Assembly: GCA_011522725.1 (NCBI GenBank)
Contig: WTIL01000081.1
Location: 66,259 to 103,331, forward strand
Source of the DNA: Rhodospirillaceae bacterium
GTDB lineage: Bacteria > Pseudomonadota > Alphaproteobacteria > Puniceispirillales > Puniceispirillaceae
Direction: 5' to 3'
DNA length: 37,073 bases
Shown here: positions 2,803 through 34,922 of the stretch, in pieces
Numbering within the stretch: the first letter of the stretch is position 1
Layout of the letters: the number at the start of each line of letters is the position of its first letter
The notes under the pieces: generated by a model
Seen by the model: only the letters and a program-made list of their open reading frames with translations
What the model was told of the DNA's origin: nothing
The model's database searches: none
Translations under genes and position numbers: made by a program

Positions 2803-3086
2803 GCACATCGTGAAAACGAACGACCGTCTCGTCAATCTGCGCTGACGGGCCCCGGCGATCATGTTTTTCGCCATGGAAGCCCGGGCAATTGAAACCAAGG
2901 CACACGCCATCGCCCGGATGGAACTGCTGGTGTGACTTGTAACAGCGTTTCATTTTGCCAGGGAATTGGCAACGCAATTCAGGCTGAGACAGGCTCCCGG
3001 CGGACGACTTTTCCGCCGGCAACTTTACATTTCAGGACCGTTATAAAATAGTGGAAGCAGGCCGGGCGTGCGCACCGGTTGTCTGC

Positions 3087-3093
3087 GGGAGGG
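3087..3093 (+). promoter_or_regulatory. Ribosome binding site for the pxpA GTG start
   Basis: GGGAGGG lies seven bases before GTG at 3101. The bases GAGG-GTC-CCTC at 3089-3099 could fold back on this site into a small hairpin, which might lower initiation; that is inference. Confidence 0.6.
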
Positions 3094-3100
3094 TCCCTCT

Positions 3101-3880
3101 GTGGCATATGTCGATCTGAATTCTGATCTTGGCGAAAGTTTCGGCCAGTACAAGATTGGCGAGGATGAGGAGATGATGAAAATCATTTCCTCAGCCAATG
3201 TCGCTTGCGGCTTCCATGGCGGCGACCCGCAGGTGATGCACGAGACCCTGTCACAGGCAAGGGCGAACGGCGTGGGGGTCGGCGCGCATCCCGGGTTCAA
3301 TGATCTGTGGGGCTTTGGCCGTCGCCGGATAGTCGGAGACAGCCCGGCTGACATCGAAAAGTCGCTTGTCTATCAGATCGGCGCGATCCAGGGCATGGCG
3401 ACCTCGCTCGATATGCGGGTCACGCATTACAAGATCCATGGCGCCCTCAGCAACATGGCCTGCGAGGATGAAGATCTGGCCATGGCCGCGGCGCGGGCTG
3501 TGAAGTCCGTCGATCAGGACCTGATTTTCCTCGTTCTTCCCGGAAGCGAGCTTGAAAAGGCGGGCGAGAAGCTGGGGCTCAATGTGGCGCGCGAGGTCTT
3601 CGCCGACCGCGCCTATGAGGATGACGGCATGCTGGTCTCGCGAAAGAAGGACGGTGCCATGATCAAGGACGCCGCCGAGGCCGGCAGGCGGATGGTCCGG
3701 TTCATCGAGGATGGCGCGATGCAAAGCATCAATGGGAAGCGCATACCGGTTCAGATTGACTCGATCTGCGTTCATGGTGACAGCCCGACGGCGGTGGCTA
3801 TGGCAAAATCGGTCCGCAACGCGCTGATCGATGCCGGTATCGAGATCAGGCCGATGCACGAGACGATGTTTCCGTCCTGA
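3101..3880 (+). CDS. pxpA: 5-oxoprolinase subunit A (LamB/YcsF family)
   Basis: The product of 259 residues matches the LamB/YcsF family, the subunit that works with PxpB and PxpC in ATP-dependent opening of 5-oxoproline to glutamate. Family motifs are VDLNSDLGESFG near the N-terminus, ANVACGFHGGDP around residue 30-45, GVGAHPGFNDLWGFGRR, THYKIHGAL and CVHGDSP near the end. I took GTG at 3101 as the start because GGGAGGG lies seven bases upstream and because translation from it begins at the conserved N-terminus; the in-frame ATG at 3068 adds only unrelated residues. It is first in a tight plus-strand operon: pxpB begins five bases after its stop. The divergent neighbour is ectC. Confidence 0.95.
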   Translation: MAYVDLNSDLGESFGQYKIGEDEEMMKIISSANVACGFHGGDPQVMHETLSQARANGVGVGAHPGFNDLWGFGRRRIVGDSPADIEKSLVYQIGAIQGMATSLDMRVTHYKIHGALSNMACEDEDLAMAAARAVKSVDQDLIFLVLPGSELEKAGEKLGLNVAREVFADRAYEDDGMLVSRKKDGAMIKDAAEAGRRMVRFIEDGAMQSINGKRIPVQIDSICVHGDSPTAVAMAKSVRNALIDAGIEIRPMHETMFPS

Positions 3881-3885
3881 CAGAT

Positions 3886-4617
3886 ATGGCGACCCCCGAC
3901 GTACAGTACCTGTCCAGCGGCGACACCGCGCTTACCGTCCAGTTCGGCACCGTGATCGAACGCGAACTGAACAGCCGGATCGTCGCGCTCGGCCACAGCA
4001 TCGCACAGGCCGCGATCGCGGGTGTCAGCGAAACGCTGCCGACCTATCGTTCGCTGCTGGTGAATTATGACCCGCTGGTGGTGACACGCGACGAGCTTGT
4101 CGCGCAGCTTCAGCCGCTAATCGAGTCTCCGCCGGAAGCCGGTGATGCCGCGCCGGCCCATTGGCAAATTCCGGTCTGTTTTGACAGTGACCTTGCCCCT
4201 GACCTTGCCCATGTCGCCGCCGCGTCGGGGCTGGACGAGAATGAGGTCATCAAGGCCATGCTCGAGGTGACGCATCATGTCTATATGCTCGGTTTCGCGC
4301 CGGGGCAGCCCTATATGGGCGACCTGCCGCCGGCCCTGAACATTCCGCGTCGCGAGAATCCTGTTGCGCGGGTGGAGAAAGGGTCGGTTGTGACCGCCAC
4401 CGGCCTGACCATCATCTATGCCGTGCCGAATCCCACCGGCTGGCATGTGGTGGGGCGCACGCCGGTCGAGATCTTCAACCTTGCGCGCGAGGAGGCGATC
4501 CTCTTCAAGCCCGGGGACAAGGTCCGTCTCAGCCGGATCGAGCGCGATGAATTCGACGAGCTGACGGCACAGGTCGATGACGGCAGCTTTGACATGACAC
4601 GCTTGAGGCAGCCATGA
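3886..4617 (+). CDS. pxpB: 5-oxoprolinase subunit B (KipI / allophanate hydrolase subunit 1 family)
   Basis: The 243-residue product fits the AHS1/KipI family. Its signature GFAPGQPYMGD begins at residue 136, followed by the conserved IPRRENPVARVEKGSV stretch and PTGWHVVGRTPVEIF. In the PxpABC complex this subunit pairs with PxpC for the ATP-dependent step on 5-oxoproline, in the cytoplasm. The gene starts five bases after pxpA ends and its stop overlaps the pxpC start by four bases (ATGA), so the three are a translationally coupled unit. KipI-type sporulation control can be discounted because pxpA is adjacent. Confidence 0.95.
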   Translation: MATPDVQYLSSGDTALTVQFGTVIERELNSRIVALGHSIAQAAIAGVSETLPTYRSLLVNYDPLVVTRDELVAQLQPLIESPPEAGDAAPAHWQIPVCFDSDLAPDLAHVAAASGLDENEVIKAMLEVTHHVYMLGFAPGQPYMGDLPPALNIPRRENPVARVEKGSVVTATGLTIIYAVPNPTGWHVVGRTPVEIFNLAREEAILFKPGDKVRLSRIERDEFDELTAQVDDGSFDMTRLRQP

Positions 4618-5654
4618 GCGCGGGGCTGGAAGTCATCTCGCCGGGCCTGATGACAAGCGTTCAGGACCGTGGGCGTTTCGGCTATCAGGCGCTTGGCATT
4701 TCTGTGTCGGGGGCGCTCGACACCGACAGTTTCGACATCGCCAACGCGCTTGTGGGTAATGAGTCCGGGAACAAGGTTGGGACGGGCGCGCTGGAAATCC
4801 GGATGCTCGGCCCGACACTGAAAGTGACGGCGGACAGCGTGACGGTGGCACTTGCCGGCACCGCGACCGCGATCGAGGTGGTGGCGCCTGAAAGGGAGGT
4901 GATTTCCGCCTGCCGCAGCGTCACCCTTCTGAAAGGACAGGTCTTCAGGGTCGGGGCGGTCAGCGACAGCGCTGTCTGTTATCTCGCTGTCCATGGCGGC
5001 TTCGACCTGCCCCCGATCTATGGCAGCCAGTCGACCTGCATGTCGGCGGGGTTTGGCGGCTTCCACGGGCGCATTCTGGAAAAGGGGGATTGCCTGCCAC
5101 TGCGCCAGCCCGTCAGCGGCTCTTCATCGCAGCGCATTCTCAGGCGGCCGCCGGACCCGGACAACTCGCCGTTCATCAGGGTGGTTGCCGGCCCGCAGGA
5201 TGACTATTTCTCCACCGCTGGTATCAAGACCTTCTTCGAAACAGGCTACACCGTCTCGCAAGCGGTCAACCGCATGGGCATGCGTCTCGAAGGGGCGGCT
5301 GTCACGCATGAGAAGGGTTACAACATCGCTTCCGACGGCATTGTACGCGGCGCGATCCAGGTGCCGGGCAACGGGTTGCCGATCATTCTGATGGCGGATT
5401 GCCAGACCACCGGCGGGTACCCGAAAATCGCGACGGTCATCTCGTCGGACATGCCGAAGCTCGGCCGGATGATGCCGGGGGCGGATATCAGGTTCAAGGC
5501 AGTCTCAGTCGGCGAGGCAGAGGCTGTCGCCCGCGAGCGACACGAACGCCAGGCTGCGCTGATCGGCGCGATCGAACGGTTCAGCGGTTCGGTTGAACAG
5601 CTCGAGCATCTTCTGATGACACAGAACCTGATCAGCGGCGTGACGGCGGGTTAG
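4614..5654 (+). CDS. pxpC: 5-oxoprolinase subunit C (KipA / allophanate hydrolase subunit 2 family)
   Basis: The 346-residue product begins with the AHS2 hallmark: GLMTSVQDRGRFGYQALGIS, then SGALDTDSFDIANALVGN. Further family features are GGFDLPPIYGSQSTC, the VVAGPQDDYFS segment and the C-terminal block ASDGIVRGAIQVPGNGLPI / LMADCQTTGGYPKIATVISSD. It completes the PxpABC 5-oxoprolinase, which hydrolyses 5-oxoproline to glutamate with ATP. It overlaps pxpB by ATGA and is the last gene of the operon, converging on an alpha/beta hydrolase 23 bases away. Confidence 0.95.
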   Translation: MSAGLEVISPGLMTSVQDRGRFGYQALGISVSGALDTDSFDIANALVGNESGNKVGTGALEIRMLGPTLKVTADSVTVALAGTATAIEVVAPEREVISACRSVTLLKGQVFRVGAVSDSAVCYLAVHGGFDLPPIYGSQSTCMSAGFGGFHGRILEKGDCLPLRQPVSGSSSQRILRRPPDPDNSPFIRVVAGPQDDYFSTAGIKTFFETGYTVSQAVNRMGMRLEGAAVTHEKGYNIASDGIVRGAIQVPGNGLPIILMADCQTTGGYPKIATVISSDMPKLGRMMPGADIRFKAVSVGEAEAVARERHERQAALIGAIERFSGSVEQLEHLLMTQNLISGVTAG

Positions 5655-5677: not shown

Positions 5678-6448
5678 TCAGCCGTGAACGAACCTGATCT
5701 GGTGCCTTGCGACCGTTTCCCCCGCCTCGACAAGGATCGAGTGTTTCAGTCCCTCGAGGACAATCAGCTCCGAGTTCGGCATGGCGTCATCGATCAGCCT
5801 GTTTAGCCGCGGGTTGCATCCACCATCCAGTTCTCCGGTGATGATCAGCGCAGGCTGGGTGACCTCGTGGAGCCACGGCATCATTTCGGTGCTGGCATAG
5901 ATACGGAAGACATTCATGAAGATGTCGGGGTCCGTAGCCATCACCTGTTTCAGCCGCCGTTCCACGATGTCGGGGTTCCGGTCTATGAAATCATCGGTAA
6001 ACCAGCGGTTTGTCAGCGTGCCGAGGACCTTCTCGATGCCCTTCTGCTCCATCGCCTCGACCACGGCCCAGACCTTGGCGCTGTCATCCCCGGTCCGTCC
6101 CGCCGCCGTTGAATAAAGCCCTAGGGACGATACCCGGTCAGGGAATCTCAGCGCGTATCGGGGCCCGATCATCCCGCCAAGCGAATGACCGGCAAGATGC
6201 ATGCGCTCCAGCCCGAGCCGAACCCGCAACTGTTCGAGATCGTCAACCAAATCATCAAGCCCGAAGCCGGGGTCCGGCAGCGGGGACTCGCCGTGGCCGC
6301 GCAGGTCATAGGTGACCACGGTAAAATGCTCATGAAGGTGCGGGGTGATGAAGCGCCAGGCGTCACGTGCCGCGCCAATGCCGTGGATCAGGACCAGAGG
6401 CTCGCCCGTGCCTTCAACGGAATAGGCGCAATCTATCGCTTTAGCCAT
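5678..6448 (-). CDS. Alpha/beta hydrolase (enol-lactonase-like)
   Basis: The 256-residue protein is a single-domain alpha/beta hydrolase. Visible are the oxyanion region LVLIHGIGAARDAW (about residues 18-31), YDLRGHGES, the nucleophile elbow AGHSLGGMIG with S89, the acid in ITGELDGGCNP, and the histidine in LKHSILVEAGE. Its closest resemblance is to the PcaD enol-lactone hydrolase and RutD type, but these motifs do not fix the substrate. It is the last gene of the minus-strand run that includes a flavin monooxygenase, a beta-hydroxyacid dehydrogenase and a PhyH oxygenase, with a 71-base gap to the LLM gene upstream. Hydrolysis of an ester, lactone or ring-cleavage product made by those oxygenases is an inference. 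Confidence 0.9.
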   Translation of the reverse strand: MAKAIDCAYSVEGTGEPLVLIHGIGAARDAWRFITPHLHEHFTVVTYDLRGHGESPLPDPGFGLDDLVDDLEQLRVRLGLERMHLAGHSLGGMIGPRYALRFPDRVSSLGLYSTAAGRTGDDSAKVWAVVEAMEQKGIEKVLGTLTNRWFTDDFIDRNPDIVERRLKQVMATDPDIFMNVFRIYASTEMMPWLHEVTQPALIITGELDGGCNPRLNRLIDDAMPNSELIVLEGLKHSILVEAGETVARHQIRFVHG

Positions 6449-6519
6449 GGGTTCGACCTGTTGTCATCCGGTGTCAGTTACAACGTTCAGATACTGCGGA
6501 GATCAGATGCTGCGGGATT

Positions 6520-7569
6520 TCACTCCGCCGCCTCGATCTTTCCGAGCTTGGAGAAGTGGGGCATCACCTCTTCGGCGATCGACTGCATGTTCTCGAGCGT
6601 CTCCTGATTGGGCGTGCCGATATTCTGGCTCAGGATCAGTTCATCCACCCCGGCTTCCTCATAGACCGCCAGCTGGTCGATGAACTCGTCCCGCGTGCAG
6701 ATCAGAAGATTCGTCTCCAGCTCCTCCAGCGTCTGGGTCCGGGGCAGCCTCGCGATCGCCCCGCTTTCAATCTCGCCCGGTCCGGTGAACACATTGTCGA
6801 ACCGCGCATAATAGTCGTTCGCCAGCTCCAGCTTGGCGCGCTTGTCGGCCTCGTCCCTTGCCAGCCAGCACACACGTGACAGGCTGATTGTCAGATGCTT
6901 GCCGGCATCGCCAAGCTCGTCCTTGGCCTTGTAGAATGCGCCGATCTGCTCGAGCATTTTCTCGTTCGTGTCCATCAGGGGCGTCGTCTGGATATGAAAC
7001 CCGCGCCGGGTGGAGTGGTAGATCGCCGGCGGGGACAGGGCGGCCATCATGAGCTGGACCGGACGCACAGGCCGCGGCATCACGGTCAGCTCGTCGAAAT
7101 TGTAGTATTTGCCCGACCAGCTGACATTTTCCCGCTCCAGCAATGCCTGCAGGACATTCAGGCTCTCGTCGAACTTCTCGCGGCTCTCCTCGATCGGCGC
7201 GCCCATCCTGTCCATCTCGACGGCAAAGGCGCCGCGCCCGACGCCGAGGATCAGGCGTCCGTCGGTGAACAGTTCGGCCAGCACCACCTCGCCGGCATAG
7301 GTGCGCATGTCATGCAGCGGCAACTGGACGACCGAGGTGATGATCTTGATGCGCCTTGTCGCCCCGGCGACCTTGATCGCCATCTGCAGCGGAGCAGGGT
7401 TCATCAGGATGTTCATCAGATGATGTTCGGGGATGGACACCGACGCATAGCCGAGGCGCTCAGCGGCAACGGCCTGCTCCAGCATGTCTGCGTAATGCCG
7501 GTCGGCGCCATAGCTGGTGTCCGGATAGTAGGATGACAGAAAATGGTTGAATTCCACGGCCCTCTCCAT
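6520..7569 (-). CDS. LLM-class flavin-dependent oxidoreductase (luciferase-like monooxygenase)
   Basis: The 349-residue product has the bacterial luciferase-like TIM-barrel pattern: FNHFLSSYYPDTSYG at the N-terminus, VSIPEHHLMN near residue 45, the RIKIITSVVQLPLHDMRTYAGEV strand-loop, LGVGRGAF and the later PRPVRPVQLMMAALSP. Such proteins use reduced FMN (or F420) from a separate reductase to oxygenate or oxidise small molecules. No flavin reductase gene is adjacent. It sits between a beta-hydroxyacid dehydrogenase and an alpha/beta hydrolase on the same strand with gaps of about 70 bases. Substrate unknown; the upstream ribosome site (GGCAAG) is weak. Confidence 0.92.
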   Translation of the reverse strand: MERAVEFNHFLSSYYPDTSYGADRHYADMLEQAVAAERLGYASVSIPEHHLMNILMNPAPLQMAIKVAGATRRIKIITSVVQLPLHDMRTYAGEVVLAELFTDGRLILGVGRGAFAVEMDRMGAPIEESREKFDESLNVLQALLERENVSWSGKYYNFDELTVMPRPVRPVQLMMAALSPPAIYHSTRRGFHIQTTPLMDTNEKMLEQIGAFYKAKDELGDAGKHLTISLSRVCWLARDEADKRAKLELANDYYARFDNVFTGPGEIESGAIARLPRTQTLEELETNLLICTRDEFIDQLAVYEEAGVDELILSQNIGTPNQETLENMQSIAEEVMPHFSKLGKIEAAE

Positions 7570-7640
7570 CTTGCCGGGTATCTCGCCGGAAAAGCCTATC
7601 GCCGATCCGCCGTGATGTCAGTACCGGAAGAGCAATGCGT

Positions 7641-8597
7641 TCAGGACGCGCCTGCGCCCTGCGGAATGATCTCGTAGCCCGGTTCCTCCGGCTCGTCATC
7701 CAGCATTTCCGGCGGGAAGCCGGGTGCCCGGATATCGAGGCCGGTCGCATCCTCGAGACGCTTGATGATGTTCGGCGAGAGTTCGCGGCTGCCATAGCGT
7801 GAAATGCCGTCATCGAAGATATCCACCAGCATCGGCGCGATCTCCAGCGGAATCCCGGCGCGGTCGGCGACCTCCTTGAACAGGCCGACATCCTTTTTCA
7901 CCAGATCCATGGTGAAGGAGATGTCGCGCGATCCGTTCAGGATCACCTGGCTCTCGGTTTCATGGACGAAGGATGTGCCGGAGGAAATCTTGATCGCCTC
8001 ATAGGCGGTGTTGAGGTCCATGCCGGCGGCCTTGGCGGTGACTAGCGCCTCGCAGCAGGTGACGAGGTTCGCGGTGGCGAGATAGTTGGTGACGACCTTC
8101 AGGATCGAGGCCGATCCCAGATCGCCGGTATGAAGGATGCGGCGTCCCATGGTCTTCAGGAACGGCGCGATGCGCTCGAAGGTGGCACGGTCGCAGCCGG
8201 CGAAGATCGAGATGTTGCCGGTCGCCGCCCGGTGGCACCCGCCCGACACCGGGCAGTCCACGGCAGCGCCGCCGCGCTCCATCACCAGCGCGCCGAGGCG
8301 TTTGACCTCCGCCTCGTCGGTGGTCGACATTTCCATCCAGATCTTGCCGTCGGTCACCTCGGGCAGCATTTCGTCCATCACCGCGGCAGAGGCGGCGGGC
8401 GAGGGTAGGCAGGTGATGACAGCGTCGCAATTGCGCATCAGGTCGGCCGGGCCTTCGGCGCGCTTTGCGCCGAGGGCGACGAATTCGCCGACGAGGTCCT
8501 GATTGAGGTCATGGACCATGATATCCATGCCGTTTCGCAGCAGCGAGCCCGAGAGTTTGCCGCCGACATTGCCGAGGCCGATGAATCCGACTTTCAT
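7641..8597 (-). CDS. NAD(P)-dependent beta-hydroxyacid dehydrogenase (3-hydroxyisobutyrate dehydrogenase family)
   Basis: The 318-residue protein starts with the Rossmann motif VGFIGLGNVGGKLSGSLLRNG. The substrate-binding motif DCPVSGGCHRAATGNISIFAG and the catalytic lysine region ASILKVVTNYL (Lys and Asn both kept) mark it as a family member that oxidises 3-hydroxyisobutyrate, tartronate semialdehyde, D-glycerate-type or related 3-hydroxy acids. A C-terminal tail of about 20 residues (LDDEPEEPGYEIIPQGAGAS) is acidic and probably disordered. It is 69 bases downstream of the PhyH oxygenase gene on the same strand and upstream of the LLM monooxygenase, so it probably acts in the same catabolic route. 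Substrate not determinable. Confidence 0.93.
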   Translation of the reverse strand: MKVGFIGLGNVGGKLSGSLLRNGMDIMVHDLNQDLVGEFVALGAKRAEGPADLMRNCDAVITCLPSPAASAAVMDEMLPEVTDGKIWMEMSTTDEAEVKRLGALVMERGGAAVDCPVSGGCHRAATGNISIFAGCDRATFERIAPFLKTMGRRILHTGDLGSASILKVVTNYLATANLVTCCEALVTAKAAGMDLNTAYEAIKISSGTSFVHETESQVILNGSRDISFTMDLVKKDVGLFKEVADRAGIPLEIAPMLVDIFDDGISRYGSRELSPNIIKRLEDATGLDIRAPGFPPEMLDDEPEEPGYEIIPQGAGAS

Positions 8598-8666
8598 GAT
8601 CGATAGTTCCCTTGTCTGAAGTTCATATGGGGAAGAGGTGCCGGCGGGATGCCGGCAGGGTTGTGC

Positions 8667-9671
8667 CTAGCAGACGGCCGCGTCGTTCCAGCGGCGGTCC
8701 TCGAAAATACGGCCGGTGAAGCGGCCTGACAGGACGTCATCGCGCGCCGCGTCCCATGCGTCGCCCCATGCCTGCGGGTCGCGAAGCTCGCTCTGCGGGT
8801 CGGCCTTGCTTCGTGCGACAAAGCCGGGAAAGGCCGGCCTGCCGGATGCCTGCCCGACCGGGTGGTAGCGCAAATCCATGCTCCAGCGCAGACCGCCCGA
8901 CAGGTTCGGCAGCGCGCGATGCACATTCATCTTGTGGAACAGCACGACGCCGCCCTTGCCGACGGGAAGCGGCGTGCCCTCGCGCCCCGCCATCACCTTG
9001 TCAGGGACCTGCGGCTCGCGCGCGATGGCCAGGTTCGAGCAATGCACCTTCGGGCCCTCGCGATGCGATCCGGCGATGGATGTCAGGCAGCCATTCTCGA
9101 TCGTCGCCTCGGTGATCGCCAGCCACACCGTCACCTGGTTGGTGTCGTCGGCATCTTCAAGAAGGGCGACAATGTCCTGATGCCAGGTGGTGGCGCCGAC
9201 ATTCGAGTGGCCCGACACCTCGTCATGCAGCGCCGTCGCCGGCGGCTTCATCCGCATCTGCTGGACCGGGCTGGCGAAAATCTCCGGCCCGATGATGTCC
9301 TCGACCACGTCGAGGATGCGCGGATGGCGCATCAGCTCGAACACGGCCGGGCCGTGATGCATGTGATAGGTGTCTGGCTCGCGTCCCTCGTTCAGCAGCG
9401 GCAGCGAGATATTCAGGAACTGGTGCAGCACCGGATATTCGGCGATCACCCGCGCGTAGCGCGCGCCGAATTCGAGGCCTTCATAGCTGTCCGAAATTTC
9501 GCCCCGCGCATAGAGGTCTGTCGCCAGCCTGTCGAGAAGCTCGGCATATTCGGTTTCGATGGGGGCGAGGTCCTCCGGCGGCACGACATTGTCGATGGCG
9601 AGAAAGCCGTCACGCTCGAACGCGGCGAGCTGGTCCTCGGTGAGGGTGGAGGGGGCAGGTCTGGTCTTCAT
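8667..9671 (-). CDS. Phytanoyl-CoA dioxygenase (PhyH) family Fe(II)/2-oxoglutarate oxygenase
   Basis: The 334-residue protein opens with LTEDQLAAFERDGFLAIDNVVP, the usual PhyH N-terminus. The iron triad is visible as H164 and D166 in TWHQDIV and H251 in NVHRALPNLSGG, followed by the 2-oxoglutarate-contacting arginine region GLRWSMDLRYHP. It therefore probably hydroxylates or dealkylates a small substrate using Fe(II) and 2-oxoglutarate. It is clearly not the ectoine hydroxylase EctD: it is longer and lacks the EctD signature. The 163-base gap upstream (9672-9834) is the widest in this run and could carry its own promoter. Substrate unknown. Confidence 0.92.
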   Translation of the reverse strand: MKTRPAPSTLTEDQLAAFERDGFLAIDNVVPPEDLAPIETEYAELLDRLATDLYARGEISDSYEGLEFGARYARVIAEYPVLHQFLNISLPLLNEGREPDTYHMHHGPAVFELMRHPRILDVVEDIIGPEIFASPVQQMRMKPPATALHDEVSGHSNVGATTWHQDIVALLEDADDTNQVTVWLAITEATIENGCLTSIAGSHREGPKVHCSNLAIAREPQVPDKVMAGREGTPLPVGKGGVVLFHKMNVHRALPNLSGGLRWSMDLRYHPVGQASGRPAFPGFVARSKADPQSELRDPQAWGDAWDAARDDVLSGRFTGRIFEDRRWNDAAVC

Positions 9672-9834
9672 CGCGCACCGTCCGGGTCTTGCCTGCCGGG
9701 CGGTTATGCCGTCCCGGACTTGATATCTGTCCGGCTCACGGTGACACCGCTAATCAGCGCGCGCAATCCCATTTCTGCACGGCTGGAAATTTTGTACCGG
9801 ACCGATGTCGGGGCCGGATCATTCAATTCTGAAC

Positions 9835-10041
9835 TTAGTCAGGGCGGCGCATGCCGGTCATGTTGCGCTGGGCATCGGCGATGGCCCGCAACGCGCGGTC
9901 CTCGTCGCCGAGCGCCTCTGCCAGCAGCAGCGCCGCCTTGGCAAGGAACATCTCGCTATGTTCCGGCCCGTGCGCGTCGATGCCCTCGGCCAGCGCGGCA
10001 TAGACCGCTTCCAGATCGACATTCCGGTCCCGGTCGCTCAT
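9835..10041 (-). CDS. DUF2783 family small protein
   Basis: This 68-residue acidic-helical protein (LEAVYAALAEGIDAHGPEHSEMFLAKAALLLAEALGD) resembles the DUF2783 family, which is typically encoded next to FAD-dependent aromatic hydroxylases. Its ATG overlaps the stop of the FAD monooxygenase gene by four bases (ATGA), so the two are translationally coupled and probably made in similar amounts. The family has no established biochemical role that I know; a stabilising or regulatory partner of the hydroxylase is inference. No cysteines, signal peptide or membrane segment are present. Confidence 0.82.
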   Translation of the reverse strand: MSDRDRNVDLEAVYAALAEGIDAHGPEHSEMFLAKAALLLAEALGDEDRALRAIADAQRNMTGMRRPD

Positions 10042-11666
10042 TCTCCGTCCTCCTGCAGGCCGCCGGCGCAGATCCGCGTGATGGCGGAACGGATCGCCGC
10101 CCCATTCGCCCGGTGCCAGCGCGCGGCGATGAACCTGTCGGGGCGGACCAGCACGGCATCGCCGTCACCGGCGCCATAGACATCCGCCGCCTCGCCCTCG
10201 GGCGGCAGCCGCAGCACCGTTGCCAGATCATGTTCTTCCAGCAGGCCGGTCCCCGGCACATCGCCGAAAGCCAGCACGGTGAAGCCGGGGCCGAACCCGT
10301 CCATCAGGAAAGCGCCATCCAGTCTTGCGTCGGGCGCTGCCGCGCCCGGGGGCGGGCCGGCGTCCCACGCCTCGGCATCGGGCAGTGTCAGCGGGCTGTC
10401 GTGATATTCATAGGGCGTCATGTTGCGCGGGTTGGCGAACTGGCTGGCAAAGGGGAAGTCGAGCGCGAGGCTCAGCGCCGCGTCCCGCATGACGGCAAAG
10501 CCGCGGGTGCGCGGGGTCATGAACTGGGTCGATTTCTCCGACTTCTCGATGACGTCCAGCGTGGCGCGCCGCCTTTCATGGTCATAGCTGTCGAGGATCG
10601 CCTCGTCCGCCTTGCCGGCAAGGTGCCAGGCCAGTTTCCAGCCGATATTCACCCCGTCCAGCACCCCGTTATTGAAGCCGCGCACGCCGAAGATCGGCAC
10701 GATGTGCGCCGAATCCCCGATGAAGATGGTGCGGCCGTGCCGGTAGCCGTCCAGCAGCAGCGTGTTCGCCGAATAGACCGACCACCATTCCAGTTCCCAC
10801 GGCGCGTCATAGCCGCATTCATCCAGCACCTTCTGCACGGCGGCGCGGATGTTCTCCTCGCGCAGTGCCTCGTCCTCGTCTTCGTCGTCGCGAAGCTGAT
10901 AGTCGATGCGCCAGATATTGTCGGGCTGCTGATGCACCAGCACGGTCGATCCCGGCCGCGCGTCGGGGTCGAACAGGGCGAAACGCTCGACCGGCACCGG
11001 GTTTTCCATCTGGATGTCGGCGATGATGTAGCGCCCCTCGAAATTCTGCCCGGCAAGCCGCAGCCCCATCATCGAGCGGATCGGCGACCGCGCTCCGTCG
11101 GCGGCGAGAAGCCAGTCCGTGCGCATCTCGTAGGGGCCGTCCGGATCGCGCAGTGTCAGGGCCACGCCGTCACCATCTTCCGCTTCGGCCACGCCGGTGC
11201 ATTCGGTGCGCCAGCGCATGTCGATCAGCGGGTTGGCGGCGACCCCGTCATGCAGGAATTTCTCGATATATTGCTGCTCGATATTATACATCGGGCGGTG
11301 CCGCTCGGTGGCGCTGTCGGGCATGAAGAATTCCAGGATCTGCCGCCCGCGGAAGAAGCTGCGCCCCGACGCCCAGGGAAGCGATTTGTCAAGGAACGGG
11401 CCCAGCACATCCAGCAGCTGCAGCGCGGTGAAGCTGGACCGCGCGACGCAGATGGCGCGCGAGCCGTCATTGAAGGTGTGCTTGGCATCGACGATGACCG
11501 AGGGCTGCCCGTACCTGGCCAGCGTCAGCGCCGCGACCATGCCGATCGGCCCGGCCCCGACGATGGTGACGGGCGCGCGCATCGCCAGCCCGTCGCGGGC
11601 CGGCGCCTCGAACTCCGGATAGTCGAAATAGAGCGATTCCCACCGCCCCTTGCCATGAGGTTTCAT
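10038..11666 (-). CDS. FAD-dependent aromatic hydroxylase-type monooxygenase (PHBH/MhpA superfamily)
   Basis: The protein has the two FAD motifs of the para-hydroxybenzoate hydroxylase superfamily: VGAGPIGMVAALTLARYG (dinucleotide motif at residues 37-42) and GRTIFIGDSAHIVPIFGVRGFNNGVLDGVNIGWKLAWHLAG. A DG-type motif is also present (LLAADGARSPIRSMMGL). Such enzymes use NAD(P)H and oxygen to hydroxylate phenols or heterocycles. I use ATG at 11666 (542 residues); a GTG at 11708 would add 14 residues, and neither has a strong ribosome site. A thioredoxin-like C-terminal domain, common in MhpA relatives, seems present (FLMDGFGPGFTVLAFGD). It is coupled to DUF2783 by an ATGA overlap. The compound hydroxylated is unknown. 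Confidence 0.92.
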   Translation of the reverse strand: MKPHGKGRWESLYFDYPEFEAPARDGLAMRAPVTIVGAGPIGMVAALTLARYGQPSVIVDAKHTFNDGSRAICVARSSFTALQLLDVLGPFLDKSLPWASGRSFFRGRQILEFFMPDSATERHRPMYNIEQQYIEKFLHDGVAANPLIDMRWRTECTGVAEAEDGDGVALTLRDPDGPYEMRTDWLLAADGARSPIRSMMGLRLAGQNFEGRYIIADIQMENPVPVERFALFDPDARPGSTVLVHQQPDNIWRIDYQLRDDEDEDEALREENIRAAVQKVLDECGYDAPWELEWWSVYSANTLLLDGYRHGRTIFIGDSAHIVPIFGVRGFNNGVLDGVNIGWKLAWHLAGKADEAILDSYDHERRRATLDVIEKSEKSTQFMTPRTRGFAVMRDAALSLALDFPFASQFANPRNMTPYEYHDSPLTLPDAEAWDAGPPPGAAAPDARLDGAFLMDGFGPGFTVLAFGDVPGTGLLEEHDLATVLRLPPEGEAADVYGAGDGDAVLVRPDRFIAARWHRANGAAIRSAITRICAGGLQEDGE

Positions 11667-11739
11667 GCGCACCCGCCGCCGCGTTGAAGACGGCAACCAC
11701 GGTGACACGCAGGCCGCCCCGCCTCAAGAGCGGAGTGGA

Positions 11740-11988
11740 TCAAACATCCTCATCCCGCATGCCGCGATAGAGCGGCGGGACGTTCTTTGCGGCGTTTTCG
11801 AAGCGCAGGGTGCGGCGGGCTTCCAGCTCCGCCTCGATCCGCGCCAGCAGCGCGGTGCCGGCCTCGGTAGTGCGTCCGCGGGCGATGGCGCGCTCCAGCT
11901 TCGCGCGGCGGCTCAGCAATTCCCGCTGGGTCAAATGCGGCAGGTCCAGCCGCGAGGCCCCGCTCGTCTCGCTCGCGCCCCCGCTCAT
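11740..11988 (-). CDS. Small hypothetical protein coupled to Gfo/Idh gene
   Basis: I do not recognise this 82-residue protein. Its ATG at 11988 overlaps the stop of the Gfo/Idh/MocA gene by four bases (ATGA), which supports it as a real translated gene. The product is helical and highly charged (LTQRELLSRRAKLERAIAR; ARIEAELEARRTLRFENAAKN) and could form a short coiled coil; it has no cysteine, signal peptide or membrane segment. A longer reading from 12000 adds four residues. It precedes the FAD monooxygenase by 73 bases. It could be a small partner protein of one of its neighbours. Confidence 0.6.
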   Translation of the reverse strand: MSGGASETSGASRLDLPHLTQRELLSRRAKLERAIARGRTTEAGTALLARIEAELEARRTLRFENAAKNVPPLYRGMRDEDV

Positions 11989-12926
11989 CCCCCCAGCCAT
12001 TCGCCCAGCACGCGCACCAGCTCGCGTGATTCCGACAAATCCGTCGGCCGCCCTTCGGCCACGGCGGCGGCGAAATCCCGGACCATCAGCTCATACTGGT
12101 CGCAGGGCCCGAACCGTGCCTCGGCGCCGGTGCCCAGAAGCGCCTCCTTGCCGTCCCGCGCATGCGCCCAGCGCGCCGTCGTTTCCGCTGCCGGGTTGAA
12201 CGGCGTGTCGAGGCGCGCCCACCCGTCGGTGCCGGTCAGCAGCACCGACTGGCACAGCGTCGCCCCGCTGGAGACCGACATCGTCAGCACCTGTCCGTCA
12301 TCGAAGCCGACAAGCGCGCTTGCCGAGCGTTCGACATCGAGATGCGCCTCCGGCAGCGTCGTCGCGCCGATCAGCCGCGGCCTGCCGTTCAGCAGCATCA
12401 TTCCCGCCAGCAGCGTATAGCCGCCGATGTCCCAGACAGGCCCGCCGCCCCAGGCCGCCACATTGCGCACATTGCCCTCGGGCTGCGGCGGATAGGTGAA
12501 GGTGGCGGTCACATGCGTGCGGGCGCCGAGGTCGAGGCCGCGAAGCCAGTCCCATTGCGGGTGGTAGCGCACCATGTAGCCGTCATAGAGATAGAGGCCG
12601 GCGCGCGCCGCCACCGCGGCCAGCCGGTCGAGCTCTTCCACCGACAGCGCCACCGGCTTCTCGCAGATCACCGGCTTGCCGGCTTCCAGCGCGGCGATGC
12701 TCATCGGCACGTGAAGATGGTTGGGAAGCGGGTTGTAGACGGCGTCGATATCGGGGTCGGCCAGCATCGCCTCATAGGTTGAGACACGGACATCGCCCCA
12801 GACCGGGTCCGCCCCGCCGGACGGGTCGCGCCGGCCGAGGTGGGTCACCTCATGGCCTGCCGCGCGGATGGCGGGCAGCAGTTTCTCGCGCGCGATCTTG
12901 GCATCGCCCAATACGCCAAATTTCAT
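11985..12926 (-). CDS. Gfo/Idh/MocA family oxidoreductase
   Basis: The 313-residue product has an N-terminal Rossmann fold (KFGVLGDAKIAREKLLPAI, a variant of the usual GxGxxA) and the family motif GKPVICEKPVALSVEELDRLA with the conserved EKP. The C-terminal half holds the mixed beta-sheet domain with WDIGGYTLLAGMMLLNGRP. These enzymes oxidise or reduce sugars, inositols or dihydrodiol-type substrates with NAD(P); dihydrodiol dehydrogenases are close relatives and would fit an aromatic context, but this is not decided by sequence. It is the first gene of the minus-strand run, divergent from the EamA exporter across about 115 bases that should hold both promoters. Confidence 0.92.
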   Translation of the reverse strand: MKFGVLGDAKIAREKLLPAIRAAGHEVTHLGRRDPSGGADPVWGDVRVSTYEAMLADPDIDAVYNPLPNHLHVPMSIAALEAGKPVICEKPVALSVEELDRLAAVAARAGLYLYDGYMVRYHPQWDWLRGLDLGARTHVTATFTYPPQPEGNVRNVAAWGGGPVWDIGGYTLLAGMMLLNGRPRLIGATTLPEAHLDVERSASALVGFDDGQVLTMSVSSGATLCQSVLLTGTDGWARLDTPFNPAAETTARWAHARDGKEALLGTGAEARFGPCDQYELMVRDFAAAVAEGRPTDLSESRELVRVLGEWLGG

Positions 12927-13041: not shown

Positions 13042-13983
13042 ATGAACCAGCAACCATCCGGCACCGCCTTGTCGTCTCCCGCTCCTGCCACCTCCGTCCT
13101 GACCCGCATCCATCCCTATGCGCCGGCGATCCTGATCATGGTGACGGCGCTGTGCCTTGCGGCGACCGGCGGGGCGCTGATGAAACAGCTGGCTGGCGAG
13201 CTGCCGCCGGTGCTGCTGTCCTGGTTCCGCTTCGCCATCTATGGGGTGATCTTGATCCCGCTGGCCTTCTGGCGCGCCGGCAGGGCCTGCCTTCGCCCGT
13301 CGCGGCCGGTGGTGCAGGTGGTGCGCGGTCTGCTGCTGGCGGCGGGGAACACCTCCTTCATCATCGGGGTGGTGCATGTCGATTACGCGAACGCCATCGC
13401 CATTCTCTATGTCTATCCCTTCCTGATGGTGGGGCTGTCGGCGCTGATGCTGGGCGAACCTGTGTCGCGTCCGGCCTGGGCCGGGGTGGCCGGCGGCTTT
13501 TGCGGCGTGCTGCTGGTGATCCGCCCGGATCCGGCGGCGCTCGATATCGGCGCGATCTTCATCCTGTTCACCGGCTTCACCGTCGCCGTGCAGATGCTGC
13601 TGAACCGCAAGCTCGGCAGTGAATCCGACCCGCTGCTGGTGTCGATGTGGGGCGCGGTGGTGGCCTCGGTCGCGCTCAGCGTCTCGCTGCCTTTCGTCTG
13701 GCAGGTGCCGGCCGGCGACCAGATCCTGCTCATCGCCTTTATCGGCGGGCTGTCGGCGCTCAGCCACACGCTGATGATCGTGGCGATGACCAAGGCCCCG
13801 GCCGAGGAGATCGCCCCCTTCACCTATTTCGAGATTGTCGCCGCCATCATTATCGGCATGGCGATGTTCGGAACGCTTCCCGACGGCTGGGCCTGGGCCG
13901 GCATGGCGCTGATCGCGGTCAGCGGCATCGCGGTGAAGAAGCTGCCGGGCGTGCTGAAGATGCGGCGCCGCGAGAAATACTGA
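13042..13983 (+). CDS. EamA/DMT superfamily transporter
   Basis: The 313-residue protein is almost entirely hydrophobic, with about ten membrane helices arranged as two five-helix EamA repeats. The first begins at APAILIMVTALCLAATGGALMKQLAG and the second near ALDIGAIFILFTGFTVAVQM. The loop after helix one (LPPVLLSWFRFAIYG) is typical of the drug/metabolite transporter superfamily. I start at ATG 13042 because translation from there gives a short polar N-terminus before helix one; the open frame upstream reads as non-coding. It probably exports or takes up a small metabolite across the inner membrane. It is divergent from the Gfo/Idh gene and followed by a terminator. Confidence 0.92.
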   Translation: MNQQPSGTALSSPAPATSVLTRIHPYAPAILIMVTALCLAATGGALMKQLAGELPPVLLSWFRFAIYGVILIPLAFWRAGRACLRPSRPVVQVVRGLLLAAGNTSFIIGVVHVDYANAIAILYVYPFLMVGLSALMLGEPVSRPAWAGVAGGFCGVLLVIRPDPAALDIGAIFILFTGFTVAVQMLLNRKLGSESDPLLVSMWGAVVASVALSVSLPFVWQVPAGDQILLIAFIGGLSALSHTLMIVAMTKAPAEEIAPFTYFEIVAAIIIGMAMFGTLPDGWAWAGMALIAVSGIAVKKLPGVLKMRRREKY

Positions 13984-17323: not shown

Positions 17324-17917
17324 TCAGTCCCGGGCCGATGTGATGTGGATGCAGGGCTCCGGGCTGCCAAGCAGGCCGACCATTGAATCAGGCTCTGCCG
17401 CCAGCACGGAAAACCCCGCCTCTGCCAGCATTTCGCGCAACTCTTCCTCGCTGAAATAGGCATAGAAGCGCCCGGCCGCATCGCGGGCCTCGCCGGCGCC
17501 GAGCTTCAGCCCCATATAGAACAGCCCGCCCGGGCGGATGGCCCGATGGATTCTGACAAGATTTGCCGGCATCTCGGCGCGCGGGGCGTGAAGCAGGCTG
17601 AAGCTCGCCCAGACGGCGTCATAGGCCGCGTCTTCCTGCAGCTCGCTGAAGCTCTTCTGTACGGCGTCCAGCCCGTGAAGATCATTCGCCGTCGCCACCA
17701 TGTCGGGCGATGCGTCGGTGCAGGACACGGCGAACCCGGCATCGCGCATCCGCACCGCGCTGTCGCCGACCCCGCAGCCCAGGTCAAGGATCTCGGCGCC
17801 TTCGGAAAGCCGTGCCAGAAAACCGTCCAGCCTGCTGTTGCCGCCGATCTTCGTCACCAGATTGCGATATTTGTCGATGTTCGCGGCATAGGCCGCCATC
17901 GTGTCCCGGTCGACCAT
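17324..17917 (-). CDS. Class I SAM-dependent methyltransferase
   Basis: The 197-residue protein shows motif I as [15 protein letters not shown] (residues 43-56), then [10 protein letters not shown] for the ribose-binding acid, [15 protein letters not shown] as the motif IV region and [12 protein letters not shown] as the post-motif strand. This is the generic small-molecule methyltransferase fold. I start at ATG 17917 because GGAGAG lies six bases upstream; the open frame back to 18028 has no such signal. The gene is divergent from arsH over about 140 bases and convergent with DUF1989. It lacks the paired cysteines of ArsM arsenite methyltransferases, so an arsenic role is not supported. Substrate unknown. 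Confidence 0.9.
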
Positions 17918-18060
17918 CTGTGGCTCTCCATTCAACCTTGCAGGCCAGCTTATCCCGGCGCCGTTCCGGCAGCCAAGCCGGAAACCGTTCCGACGGGATT
18001 TTGCAAAGAACTTGCCGATGGGGTACACCCGCAGTCACAAAGAAATCCGGACCAAAGCCG

Positions 18061-18774
18061 ATGACTGACACACCCAATTTGCAGGATGACCTCCTGCAAC
18101 CTGCTGATATCGCCAGCCTGACACCAGCACAGCACAGTACACACGCCCCGCGGATCCTGATGCTTTACGGCTCGCTTCGTGAACGCAGCTTCTCGCGACT
18201 TTGCGCGGAAGAGGGCGCGCGCGTCCTGACAAGGCTCGGCGCCGAGGTGCGCTTCTATGATCCATCCGGCCTGCCGCTGGTCGATGACGGCGTCGATGCC
18301 GGCCATCCGAAGGTGGAAGAGCTGCGCGATCTTGTGACCTGGTGCGAGGGCATGGTCTGGTCCTCGCCGGAACGTCATGGCGCGATGACGGGACTGATGA
18401 AAACCCAGATCGACTGGATCCCGCTATCGCTCGGCGGGGTGCGGCCCACACAGGGCAAGACGCTTGCCGTGATGCAGGTCAGCGGCGGCAGCCAGAGCTT
18501 CAACACGGTGAACCAGCTTCGGATTCTTGGCCGCTGGATGCGGCTGCTGACCATTCCGAACCAGTCATCGGTCGCGCGTGCCTGGGACGAATTCGGCGAT
18601 GACGGCCGGATGAAGCCGTCACCCTTCTACAACCGGATTGTCGATGTGATGGAAGAGCTGTTCCGCTTTACTGTCCTGACGCGTGACATCAAGGACATGC
18701 TCGTCGACCGCTATTCGGAACGGGTTGAAAGCCATGCCGAACTGGCGCGGCGGGTTAGAACACCAAAAAGCTGA
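18061..18774 (+). CDS. arsH: ArsH-type NADPH-dependent FMN oxidoreductase
   Basis: The 237-residue protein matches ArsH throughout: the FMN-phosphate loop [15 protein letters not shown] (residues 33-47), [59 protein letters not shown] and the C-terminal [10 protein letters not shown]. ArsH reduces flavin with NADPH and in several bacteria oxidises trivalent organoarsenicals, giving resistance; it also reduces quinones, azo dyes and oxygen. No arsR, arsB, acr3 or arsC is nearby, so in this window it stands alone. ATG at 18061 gives the usual length, though its ribosome site is poor. It is divergent from the methyltransferase and convergent with the glyoxalase-like gene with an eight-base gap. 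Confidence 0.92.
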
Positions 18775-29994: not shown

Positions 29995-30174
29995 GAGCGT
30001 TCAATATTGCGAGAAGACAATCTCTAGAAGCCACAAAGCCGTCTTTCCGGTCAATTGCTATCCTCTGTCAGCCTGCGGTCCGCGACAGTGTTACGCATCG
30101 TTTGGCGATAGGCCGAGATGGCTTGCAATGCCAACGCTTGCGCCGCTAGGCTGATTTCAGGAGGGCTGGGTCAC

Positions 30175-31143
30175 ATGCCGATTGTTGCGCTTGGATATAT
30201 GGGGATCAGGTCACAGGCTCTTGCCGACTGGTCCGATTATGCGGGCAGGCTGCTTGGCATGCAGAAGGTTGATTCCGGTGGTGGATCCATGGCCTTCCGC
30301 ATGGATGACTGGCGTCAGAGGCTGGTGGTCATTGACGAAGGGGGCGACGAGTTCGCCTTTATGGGGTGGCAGGTGGCCGACACCTCCGATCTCGACGGGC
30401 TGGCGGCGCGGATTGAAGGAGCCGGTATCGCCGTCACCGAGGCGGGCCGTGCGCTGTGTGACCAGCGGTTCGTCGAGCGCATGATCCATTTCGACGACCC
30501 TGACGGCAACCGTGTCGAACTGTTCGCCAACCCGCGCCTTGCAACAGACCCGTTCAGCCCCGGCCGTGCTATCGAAGGGTTTCTGACGGGTCCCTACGGC
30601 ATGGGGCACGCGGTTCTTCATGTTGCCGATGTCGCACCGTTGCTTCCGCTTTACCGCGACATCCTCGGCTTCCACGTCAGCGACTATGCGCTGGATCCCT
30701 ATCCCATGTATTTCTTCCATGTGAATGGCCGCCATCACAGCTTTGCCATGATCGGCACGGGCCGGCGCGGACTTCATCATTTCATGGTCGAATACCAGAA
30801 CCTCGACGATGTCGGGCAGGGTTATGACCTCGCGCAGCTCGAGGATGACTGTGTGGCCTACACGCTTGGCCGGCACACCAATGACTATATGACTTCCTTC
30901 TATGCGAACACGCCCTCGAGCTTCTTCATCGAAAGTGGCTGGGGAGGCCGGGTCATAGATGTCGAAAGCTGGCAGCCGCATGAGACAAATGTCGGGCCGA
31001 GCTTCTGGGGTCACGAGCGTGTCCATCTTCCCGAGGATCGGCGCAAGATGATGCGCGATCTTCGCCTTCAGGCCGCCGCCGAGGGCAAGCGCACGCCGAT
31101 GATGGCGGAATGCCCCTGGCTGTATGATCAACTGTCCCGCTGA
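30175..31143 (+). CDS. Extradiol ring-cleavage dioxygenase (BphC-type, VOC family)
   Basis: The 322-residue two-domain VOC protein has the iron ligands of type I extradiol dioxygenases at H145 (GPYGMGHAVLHV), H202 (GLHHFMVEYQN) and E253 (SFFIESGWGG), spaced as in 2,3-dihydroxybiphenyl 1,2-dioxygenase. It should cleave a catechol ring next to the hydroxyl groups with Fe(II) and oxygen. ATG at 30175 follows AGGAGG with a ten-base spacer, one of the best ribosome sites in the window. The MhpA-type hydroxylase begins seven bases after its stop, so hydroxylation and ring cleavage are encoded together. The exact catechol is unknown. Confidence 0.93.
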   Translation: MPIVALGYMGIRSQALADWSDYAGRLLGMQKVDSGGGSMAFRMDDWRQRLVVIDEGGDEFAFMGWQVADTSDLDGLAARIEGAGIAVTEAGRALCDQRFVERMIHFDDPDGNRVELFANPRLATDPFSPGRAIEGFLTGPYGMGHAVLHVADVAPLLPLYRDILGFHVSDYALDPYPMYFFHVNGRHHSFAMIGTGRRGLHHFMVEYQNLDDVGQGYDLAQLEDDCVAYTLGRHTNDYMTSFYANTPSSFFIESGWGGRVIDVESWQPHETNVGPSFWGHERVHLPEDRRKMMRDLRLQAAAEGKRTPMMAECPWLYDQLSR

Positions 31144-31150
31144 TAATCAG

Positions 31151-32647
31151 ATGAATAATTCAGATGTTTCCCGGCGCCCCCATCATGAGGTGGTGATTGT
31201 CGGTCTGGGTCCGACCGGTGCGACGCTTGCCAATATTCTGGCCGGATACGGGCTGGATGTGCTCGTTCTGGAGCGTGAAGAGTCGGTTTATCCCTTGCCG
31301 CGGGCCGTGCATTTCGACGATGAGGCGATGCGGGTCTTCCAGTCAATCGGGCTTGCCGAGGGCATCGGCCGCGACGCGCGGGTCAATGTCGGCACCAAGT
31401 TTGTCGACCGGGATCAGAAGCTGCTGCTCGACTGGCCACGACCACAGGAAATCGGCCCGCTCGGATGGTATCCAAGCTACCGGTTCCATCAGCCCGACCT
31501 TGAGGCGGAACTGAACCGCGGCATCGCTGCCTGCAAGACTGTGACCCTGCATCGCGGTGCATCGGTGACGGCGGTGGCCGACCTTGGTGATGTGGTTGAA
31601 GTCGGCTACAGCCATGATGGTGCAAAGCAGGTGGTGACTGCGGATTATGTCATCGGCACCGACGGCGCGAAATCGGTGGTCCGTGCGGCCATGGACTGTG
31701 AATGGGAGGATCTGGGCTTTCAGGAGCGCTGGCTTGTCATTGACGTGCAACTCGACAAGCCGCGACCCGACCTTGGTGATTTCACCATCCAGACTTGTGA
31801 CCGCGATCGTCCGACAACCTATGTGAGATGTCCACGCGAATGGCGCCGGTGGGAGATCAGCCTGTGGCCCGAAGAGGAGGCCGATGATGTCACGACCGAT
31901 GAATTTATCTGGCCGCGCTTGCGTCCGGCGATCACGCCGGATGAGGGTCGCATCGCGCGCAAGGCTGTATACAGCTTCGAATCCAAGCTGGCGACCAGAT
32001 GGCGTGAAGGCAGGCTGATGATCGCCGGCGACGCCGCGCATCTGATGCCGCCATTCCTTGGCCAGGGTATGTGCACTGGCATTCGCGACGTCGCCAATCT
32101 GGCCTGGAAGCTGGCCGCTGTCCTGCGCTGGGAGGCGCCTGACAGTCTGCTTGACAGTTATGAAAGCGAGCGGCGCGAGCACACCAGAACCTATATTGAA
32201 ACAGCCGTGCGCGTCGGCGAGATGATGAACAGCGCCGAAACCGCCGAAGCGCTCACCCACGCCATTCGCCCTGACGGCGCGGCACAGATGAATTCGATCA
32301 GCCGTGATCTTGACCACGCCATCGGCCCGCCGGAGGACGAAATGAGCGGAATGCGGATGCCGCAGCCCCGTCTCGATACGGGCGAGCTTCTTGGCGATGC
32401 CATGGCCGGCCGGTTCGCCGTGATCGGGCCGGGCGAGGTGCTGGAAAAAGTCACTTTGCCCCCCGAAAACATAGCTGCAGCCATCAGTGCCGAGGCGCAC
32501 CCTGAGGTTGCAGAGGTCTTCTCCGATCTTGGCATTACAGCGATGATCCTGCGCCCGGATTTCTACTGCTTTGGTTCGGTGGGGCCGCAAAACAGCGGTG
32601 GGTTGAGAGATGTTCTGGCCGAGTTCAAAAAACAGGTGCATGGCTGA
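31151..32647 (+). CDS. FAD-dependent aromatic hydroxylase, MhpA type
   Basis: The 498-residue protein begins HEVVIVGLGPTGATLANILAGYGLDVLVLERE with the FAD motif at residues 18-23. The second FAD motif is RLMIAGDAAHLMPPFLGQGMCTGIRDVANLAWKLA, characteristic of 3-(3-hydroxyphenyl)propionate hydroxylase (MhpA). VIGTDGAKSVVRAAM is the DG motif. Such enzymes hydroxylate phenols with NAD(P)H and oxygen to give catechols. It follows the extradiol dioxygenase by seven bases, so together they make and cleave a catechol. A downstream hydrolase (MhpC-like) is not adjacent; the alpha/beta hydrolase at 5678 is 25 kb away. Substrate unknown. Confidence 0.93.
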   Translation: MNNSDVSRRPHHEVVIVGLGPTGATLANILAGYGLDVLVLEREESVYPLPRAVHFDDEAMRVFQSIGLAEGIGRDARVNVGTKFVDRDQKLLLDWPRPQEIGPLGWYPSYRFHQPDLEAELNRGIAACKTVTLHRGASVTAVADLGDVVEVGYSHDGAKQVVTADYVIGTDGAKSVVRAAMDCEWEDLGFQERWLVIDVQLDKPRPDLGDFTIQTCDRDRPTTYVRCPREWRRWEISLWPEEEADDVTTDEFIWPRLRPAITPDEGRIARKAVYSFESKLATRWREGRLMIAGDAAHLMPPFLGQGMCTGIRDVANLAWKLAAVLRWEAPDSLLDSYESERREHTRTYIETAVRVGEMMNSAETAEALTHAIRPDGAAQMNSISRDLDHAIGPPEDEMSGMRMPQPRLDTGELLGDAMAGRFAVIGPGEVLEKVTLPPENIAAAISAEAHPEVAEVFSDLGITAMILRPDFYCFGSVGPQNSGGLRDVLAEFKKQVHG

Positions 32648-34876: not shown

Positions 34877-34922
34877 GTTTGTTCCTCTCGAGTTTTGCGT
34901 TTCAGATGATGTCGAAGCCTGA

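Follow-up and report, generated by a model that had tools for sequence, protein, structure and literature searches.

A candidate six-gene catabolic cassette with three oxygenases in a SAR116 genome, possibly assembled from separately travelling modules

A six-gene run with the marks of a composite catabolic cassette

The 37,073-nt stretch of SAR116 DNA analyzed here (the window; contig WTIL01000081.1, positions 66,259 to 103,331) carries on its minus strand six genes encoding, in the direction of transcription, an aromatic hydroxylase that binds flavin adenine dinucleotide (FAD), a small DUF2783-like protein, a PhyH-type Fe(II)/2-oxoglutarate oxygenase, a HIBADH-family dehydrogenase, a luciferase-like (LLM) flavin monooxygenase, and an alpha/beta hydrolase. 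We consider it about an even call that these genes form a catabolic cassette that a SAR116 sublineage has assembled laterally from separately travelling modules, and we propose more tentatively, somewhat short of even, that all six serve one pathway. The substrates are probably hydroxyaryl or enol/lactone-forming carboxylic acids. This reading draws on direct observations, namely the parts with their motifs, a gene order shared by two genomes, the signs of purifying selection, and the separate distributions; every reaction, the reaction order, and a common substrate are what we infer from protein families and gene context. The gene set is thus plausible as a new catabolic set, though unproven, and is not a new type of system.

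In the proposed scheme, a group A FAD monooxygenase assisted by the small coupling protein (module a) would, by hydroxylation, turn a phenolic acid of the arylacetate type into a hydroquinone (e.g., homogentisate). The LLM enzyme (module b) would insert oxygen with reduced flavin mononucleotide (FMN), and the enol-lactonase-like hydrolase would cleave the resulting ester or (enol-)lactone; elsewhere, this putative module is often joined by a 4-oxalocrotonate-type tautomerase. PhyH and HIBADH (modules c and d) would hydroxylate and oxidize, respectively, a side chain or a released 3-hydroxy acid.

Extent and conservation of the run

Numbered genomes and loci (G, L) are labels of our comparison set, which comprises 101 genomes of the order, a searched subset of 61, and a class sample of 385. 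G000 is the genome of the window (86.5% complete, 2.26 Mb; the window lies on its contig C32) and G007 is its sister genome; duplicated loci were counted once (L036/L037 = L071/L072; L035 = L039). The first-pass annotation had described eight minus-strand genes, and eight open reading frames (ORFs) indeed fill 5678-12926 at the places claimed, six of them with Pfam matches. Their reading as one unit fails at the upstream end. The Gfo/Idh/MocA (GFO) gene occurs in 27 of 61 genomes (E ≤ 1e-30), and in four of them (G001, G002, G003, and G009) it stands divergent to the EamA gene, with none of the FAD, small-protein, PhyH, HIBADH, LLM, and hydrolase genes in the 11 to 20 kb fetched. An eight-gene unit is therefore ruled out, GFO and EamA being genus-core genes independent of the cluster. 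Because this pair exists without the cluster, EamA is not, on present evidence, the substrate transporter that it had been suggested to be. The 86-aa ORF has no family match in profile searches, its sole relative seen is an 88% identical one in G007, and its dN/dS is 0.34, with 10 synonymous and 10 nonsynonymous changes. The core is thus delimited to six genes at 5678-11666, leaving the 86-aa ORF, GFO, and EamA outside.

G+C content at third codon positions (GC3) is 0.74 to 0.85 and exceeds that at second positions (GC2) in all eight ORFs. Orthologue comparison places the start of the FAD gene at the ATG at 11666 rather than at the GTG at 11708, and 13042 is the most likely start of the EamA protein. 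Comparison with G007 yielded dN/dS values below 0.35 for 13 of 13 genes, i.e., the eight of the run and five flanking ones (FAD was compared in two pieces, and KipI only as far as the G007 contig ends allow); with values of 0.03 to 0.18, the six core genes are intact and under purifying selection. Intergenic gaps in the run measure 69 to 163 bp, three of them 69 to 71 bp, whereas the FAD and small-protein genes overlap by 4 bp and GFO and the 86-aa ORF by 16 bp. Promoter- and terminator-like patterns in the run showed no excess over shuffled sequences. Between PhyH and HIBADH, at 8639-8657, a GC-rich hairpin can be read; its 7-bp stem is perfect, its loop has 5 nt, and it lacks a T tract.

Gene order in G007 matches that of the window, split over two contigs by a break inside the FAD gene: one contig (C245; L039) reads KipI-KipA-hydrolase-LLM-HIBADH-PhyH-small protein-FAD, and the other (C220; L148) reads FAD-86 aa-GFO-EamA-102 aa-HI0933. 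No other genome searched in the order and class sets has the complete six-gene order. The synteny search that the first-pass annotation had proposed thus largely returned, at the level of sequence, the scattered orthologues that it had named as refuting, with the full order in G000 and G007 only and HIBADH without its partners at 23 other loci. Its observation of three mechanistically different oxygenases in one run is borne out by a codirectional block that is kept in G007 and in which each of these genes is under purifying selection. The suggested breakdown of a ring compound, here extended to enol/lactone-forming ones, likewise agrees with the FAD/small-protein pair and with the LLM-tautomerase-hydrolase context described below.

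The FAD hydroxylase and its small partner resemble MhaAB

The FAD protein scores 551.8 bits against NF006002 (cutoff, 416) and has intact GxGxxG, DG, and GD motifs at 37, 190, and 317; among solved structures, there was no match at 1e-40 and only general relatives at 1e-15. Genes at least 53% identical are restricted to its own genome, G007, G011, G038, and G044 among the 61 genomes, and to its own genome, G216, and G283 in the class sample. In all 11 loci of this clade examined, the FAD gene is directly followed by a small DUF2783-like gene (the window, G007, G011, G038, G044, G283, and G216, plus Leisingera caerulea, Agrobacterium tumefaciens CFBP6625, Rhizobium sp. 32-5/1, and Comamonadaceae OTU4NAUVB1); the small gene is in several cases a weak tblastn match (E of 1e-5 to 0.6), accepted because it lies directly downstream of FAD. 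The 68-aa window protein reaches 13.7 bits against DUF2783, below the cutoff of 25, and the G216 orthologue is at the cutoff with 25.8 bits. The family as a whole aligns with the DUF2783 proteins of hmg operons (hhalign E of 2.3e-5; probability, 75.8).

The excerpted text of PMC3053370 describes MhaAB as a flavoprotein of 566 aa and a coupling protein of 60 aa, which together convert 3-hydroxyphenylacetate to homogentisate, and places the homologues in strain LB400 beside hmg genes (566 and 560 aa in strains U and LB400, respectively, with 60-aa partners). By analogy, the window pair is predicted to be an MhaAB-like hydroxylase of the 3-hydroxyphenylacetate 6-hydroxylase type, and the earlier statement that the cluster matches no obvious known pathway does not hold for these two genes, as far as the excerpt goes. 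We further infer that MhaB itself is a DUF2783 member. Gene context ties DUF2783 to homogentisate-type hydroxylases. In G216 (L169:5752-10976), hmgA follows directly on the FAD and DUF2783 genes and is itself followed by a gene read as maiA-like from its sequence and by fahA, the HgmA and FAA_hydrolase domains being confirmed by Pfam. In G011, G038, G044, and G283, the FAD pair comes without the other cluster modules.

A second version of this architecture occurs in the genus. Its hmg operon has its own FAD protein (approximately 36 to 41% identical to that of the window), a true DUF2783 protein, and an MBL protein (e.g., L196). This paralogue lies within 5 kb of hmgA, by coordinates, in 11 of the 14 genomes carrying it; in G007 and G010 the genes are on different contigs, and G036 was outside the hmgA search. 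The same FAD-DUF2783-MBL set adjoins hmgA, fahA, and paa genes on plasmid pDSHI02 of Dinoroseobacter shibae. In a 13-row FAD tree, the window clade and the hmg-linked clade A split with full support.

These data bear on the alternative that the run is a complete peripheral pathway turning one arylacetate-type compound into homogentisate and feeding the genus-core hmg operon, PhyH and HIBADH oxidizing the side chain before the FAD step. The MhaAB-like pair with its hmg linkage in G216, the presence of hmgA in all 11 other members of the genus that were searched, and a HIBADH orthologue (85%) adjoining the paa cluster in Ruegeria sp. THAF33 speak for such a route. We nevertheless regard it as unlikely, since hmgA is missing from the G000 assembly, the genus already owns an hmg-linked FAD-DUF2783 pair, and the LLM-hydrolase genes have no hmg link.

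LLM monooxygenase and hydrolase form a recurrent pair

LLM genes (E ≤ 1e-30) were found in 21 of the 101 order genomes, and a hydrolase gene adjoins them in 15 of these 21 (window and G007 counted). The association extends to all four class genomes outside the order with an LLM at least 52% identical; five further class genomes with LLMs of 42 to 47% have no adjoining hydrolase. A 4-oxalocrotonate-type tautomerase lies between LLM and hydrolase in 8 of 18 loci (window excluded), in one case as a natural fusion to the PcaD-like hydrolase downstream of LLM (L215:8540-9547; G221). The window and G007 loci have no tautomerase, and elsewhere in G000 there is only a 26% match. G049 and G056 carry a tautomerase and a tartrate-dehydrogenase-like gene with neither LLM nor hydrolase in approximately 3 kb. 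Other neighbors of the LLM-hydrolase genes include tartrate dehydrogenase, a CoA-transferase, a citrate-synthase-like protein, and amidases (Pfam/NCBIfam), as well as TTT transporters, Dpp-type ABC genes, and EamA genes (read from sequence); a LysR-like gene is divergent in L203, L213, and L214 (with Pfam support in L214 only). The window itself encodes a tartrate dehydrogenase at 33800-35041 on the minus strand (577.7 bits against TIGR02089; cutoff, 470.4), 49% identical to the one directly following LLM-tautomerase-hydrolase in L082.

In the LLM tree, the window protein falls with genus g8, the next to join being G164 (99/98 support), rather than with its own genus, five genomes of which carry a different LLM subclade without the hydrolase. 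The tree and the tautomerase count leave out G213 (LLM of 41%) and the partial LLM of G011, a sixth own-genus LLM. This placement away from its own genus argues for lateral acquisition. As for the cofactor, cofE, the marker searched for F420, is absent from 19 of 19 LLM-bearing genomes among the 61 searched, including G000 and G007, and was found in 4 of 61 overall. F420 dependence is thus rejected, and reduced FMN is the likely cofactor because the hosts lack cofE; the window encodes an FMN reductase domain at 17710-18774. The hydrolase has the GHSLG nucleophile elbow together with GELD and GLKH motifs. Searches of solved structures with LLM, PhyH, HIBADH, and the hydrolase returned general relatives that indicate no substrate.

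A bolder interpretation is that LLM, tautomerase, and PcaD-like hydrolase together open rings or ketones, as a so far undescribed module found in marine and other Alphaproteobacteria. This module would act by oxygen insertion, enol-lactone hydrolysis, and tautomerization, and in the cassette it would be coupled to the MhaAB-type hydroxylase, PhyH, and HIBADH as one hydroxyaryl-acid pathway that is new and rich in oxygenases. We hold this to be improbable; if true, it would represent a catabolic route named by none of the family models used. In the open-licence literature, we found no paper pairing a tautomerase with an enol-lactonase in an LLM context; the excerpted text of PMC5591006 names LLM and tautomerase for different ORFs.

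PhyH and HIBADH have distributions of their own

PhyH retains its metal triad (His164-x-Asp166 and distal His251). It is 96% identical in G007 and 70% in G037, and the next match is at 42%, so that identities of at least 70% are confined to 3 of 61 genomes, its own included; the class sample adds only two more at E 1e-55, of 40 to 41%. The neighbor survey leaves out L017-L034, with matches of approximately 28 to 37%. The G037 orthologue shares its run with a DAO protein and an arylmalonate-decarboxylase-like one (both by Pfam), and sequence reading suggests RidA and a Baeyer-Villiger-type monooxygenase there as well. Separately, a Pantoea dispersa plasmid (L228) has two tandem PhyH genes, one of them 38% identical to that of the window, with a B12 radical SAM protein and an O-methyltransferase, resembling a small biosynthetic cluster.

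HIBADH has the glycine-rich dinucleotide loop from residue 4, the SGG substrate loop at 118, Lys167, and Asn171. Its best solved relative is 2-hydroxymethyl glutarate dehydrogenase (3cky), and no equivalog model scored over its cutoff. Relatives are present in 41 of 385 class genomes (E ≤ 1e-80), at 46 to 82% identity apart from the query genome, and orthologues of 75 to 87% reside on Rhodobacterales plasmids. At 23 HIBADH loci, no other cluster member was seen, and 10 of these loci share one recurrent aldehyde dehydrogenase family. Three orthologues (75 to 77%) lie near genes for a TauD/GBBH-annotated dioxygenase, GMC, and ALDH proteins. Neither the HIBADH nor the PhyH contexts fix a substrate.

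The last three loci would be in line with a pathway for a quaternary amine or N-substituted carboxylate in which LLM cleaves a C-N bond, as would an LLM relative (53%) in Roseovarius pelagicus located beside choline dehydrogenase and betaine-type ABC genes. This Roseovarius LLM, however, has no hydrolase partner in the 17 kb examined, the GBBH N-domain match of one of the dioxygenases is 12.7 bits versus 22.8, and a tautomerase with an enol-lactonase-like hydrolase needs no nitrogen chemistry; we therefore deem the amine route very unlikely. Homarine and trigonelline pathways were also considered, and a literature search yielded nothing usable.

One pathway or separate units

The closest contender, to which we give nearly even weight, is that there is no single pathway: two or three independent units (the MhaAB-like pair, PhyH-HIBADH, and LLM-hydrolase) would have come to lie head to tail after successive insertions and would act on different substrates. 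Each module indeed occurs alone elsewhere, as illustrated by the partnerless HIBADH loci, PhyH in G037, the FAD pairs of G011, G038, G044, and G283, and the LLM-hydrolase genes, and units could be separated both by the 163 bp that lie between small protein and PhyH and by the hairpin downstream of PhyH. On the other hand, strand and gene order are the same for all six in both genomes, each gene is under purifying selection, three gaps are of only 69 to 71 bp, and no regulator lies between the genes. Of the modules, two follow a recognizable logic, the MhaAB-like hydroxylase and the LLM-(tautomerase)-hydrolase set.

Several observations weigh against the cassette reading. The scattered orthologues are evidence against an old, fixed pathway, and the six-gene run contains no ring-cleavage dioxygenase, regulator, or specific transporter. 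The neighbors of the LLM-hydrolase genes are varied, and none is aromatic by itself. Among the loci of the window FAD clade, only that of G216 was seen beside hmg genes; none is near the window pair, whose likeness to MhaAB is one of architecture. The G000 assembly has neither an hmgA match nor a clade A FAD gene, so that homogentisate degradation, as judged from this assembly, could not be finished in G000. As the assembly is 86.5% complete, the absence of hmgA may be a gap, which is indistinguishable from a true loss. We found no paper on SAR116 aromatic monooxygenases in the open-licence literature. Under the laterally assembled cassette that we favor, testable functions can now be assigned to this marine-lineage gene run, and the recurrent LLM-tautomerase-hydrolase set comes into view.

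Other features of the window

The coordinates of the run and its neighbors are collected in Table 1. Convergent with the cluster, at 3068-5654 on the plus strand, a LamB/YcsF gene is followed by KipI- and KipA-type ORFs (read from sequence), likely a 5-oxoprolinase set. A second aromatic pair is located approximately 17 kb from the cluster (30118-32647, plus strand), consisting of a BphC/HsaC-like extradiol dioxygenase, below equivalog cutoffs, and an MhpA-like FAD hydroxylase (539 bits against NF004829; cutoff, 390). A long plus-strand ORF of 941 aa (8862-11687) opposite FAD and PhyH was dismissed by codon-position GC as an antisense artifact of high GC, and repeats in the region resemble chance matches in GC-rich DNA.

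Table 1. Genes of the run and its upstream neighbor in the window
Feature	Coordinates	Strand	Evidence
Alpha/beta hydrolase, PcaD (3-oxoadipate enol-lactonase)-like, 256 aa	5678..6448	-	Abhydrolase_1 3e-30; partner of LLM gene
LLM flavin monooxygenase, 349 aa	6520..7569	-	Bac_luciferase 7.7e-48
HIBADH-family beta-hydroxyacid dehydrogenase, 318 aa	7641..8597	-	NAD_binding_2 4e-37, NAD_binding_11 2e-21
PhyH-type Fe(II)/2-oxoglutarate oxygenase, 334 aa	8667..9671	-	PhyH 1.8e-27
DUF2783-like small protein, 68 aa, candidate MhaB-like coupling protein	9835..10041	-	Position, profile comparison
FAD_binding_3 aromatic hydroxylase, 542 aa, MhaA-like	10038..11666	-	FAD_binding_3 8e-52
86-aa orphan ORF, probably outside unit	11740..12000	-	Without family
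Gfo/Idh/MocA oxidoreductase, genus-core neighbor, outside unit	11985..12926	-	GFO_IDH_MocA 1e-17
EamA transporter, genus-core neighbor of GFO gene, outside unit	13042..13983	+	EamA 9e-26

Comparison with known systems

The closest parallel is MhaAB of Pseudomonas putida U, with a candidate in Burkholderia xenovorans LB400. As far as the excerpt of PMC3053370 describes it, the shared architecture is an FAD hydroxylase of approximately 540 to 566 aa followed by an adjacent partner of 57 to 68 aa, and one pair of the window clade, that of G216, precedes hmgA and fahA. In contrast, the window pair is not beside hmg genes, and its small protein falls below the DUF2783 cutoff. The hmg-linked FAD-DUF2783-MBL set of D. 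shibae pDSHI02 and the SAR116 hmg operon has both protein families side by side, yet it belongs to a separate clade and comes with MBL and hmg genes that are absent at the window locus.

The first-pass annotation had also stated that the run matches neither the pca nor the rut pathway, which is upheld: both hydrolase models score below cutoff, and partner genes are absent from the run. With PcaD, the window hydrolase shares the family and serine-hydrolase motifs; it differs in reaching 146.7 bits against TIGR02427 (cutoff, 255.85), in lacking pca partners, and in being tied to LLM. The Rut pyrimidine pathway employs the LLM-type RutA and the hydrolase RutD. It thus resembles the window in bringing together an LLM-fold monooxygenase and an alpha/beta hydrolase, whereas the window hydrolase scores 59.1 bits against the RutD cutoff of 238.5, RutA does not appear among the 25 matches listed for LLM, and the run has no other rut genes.

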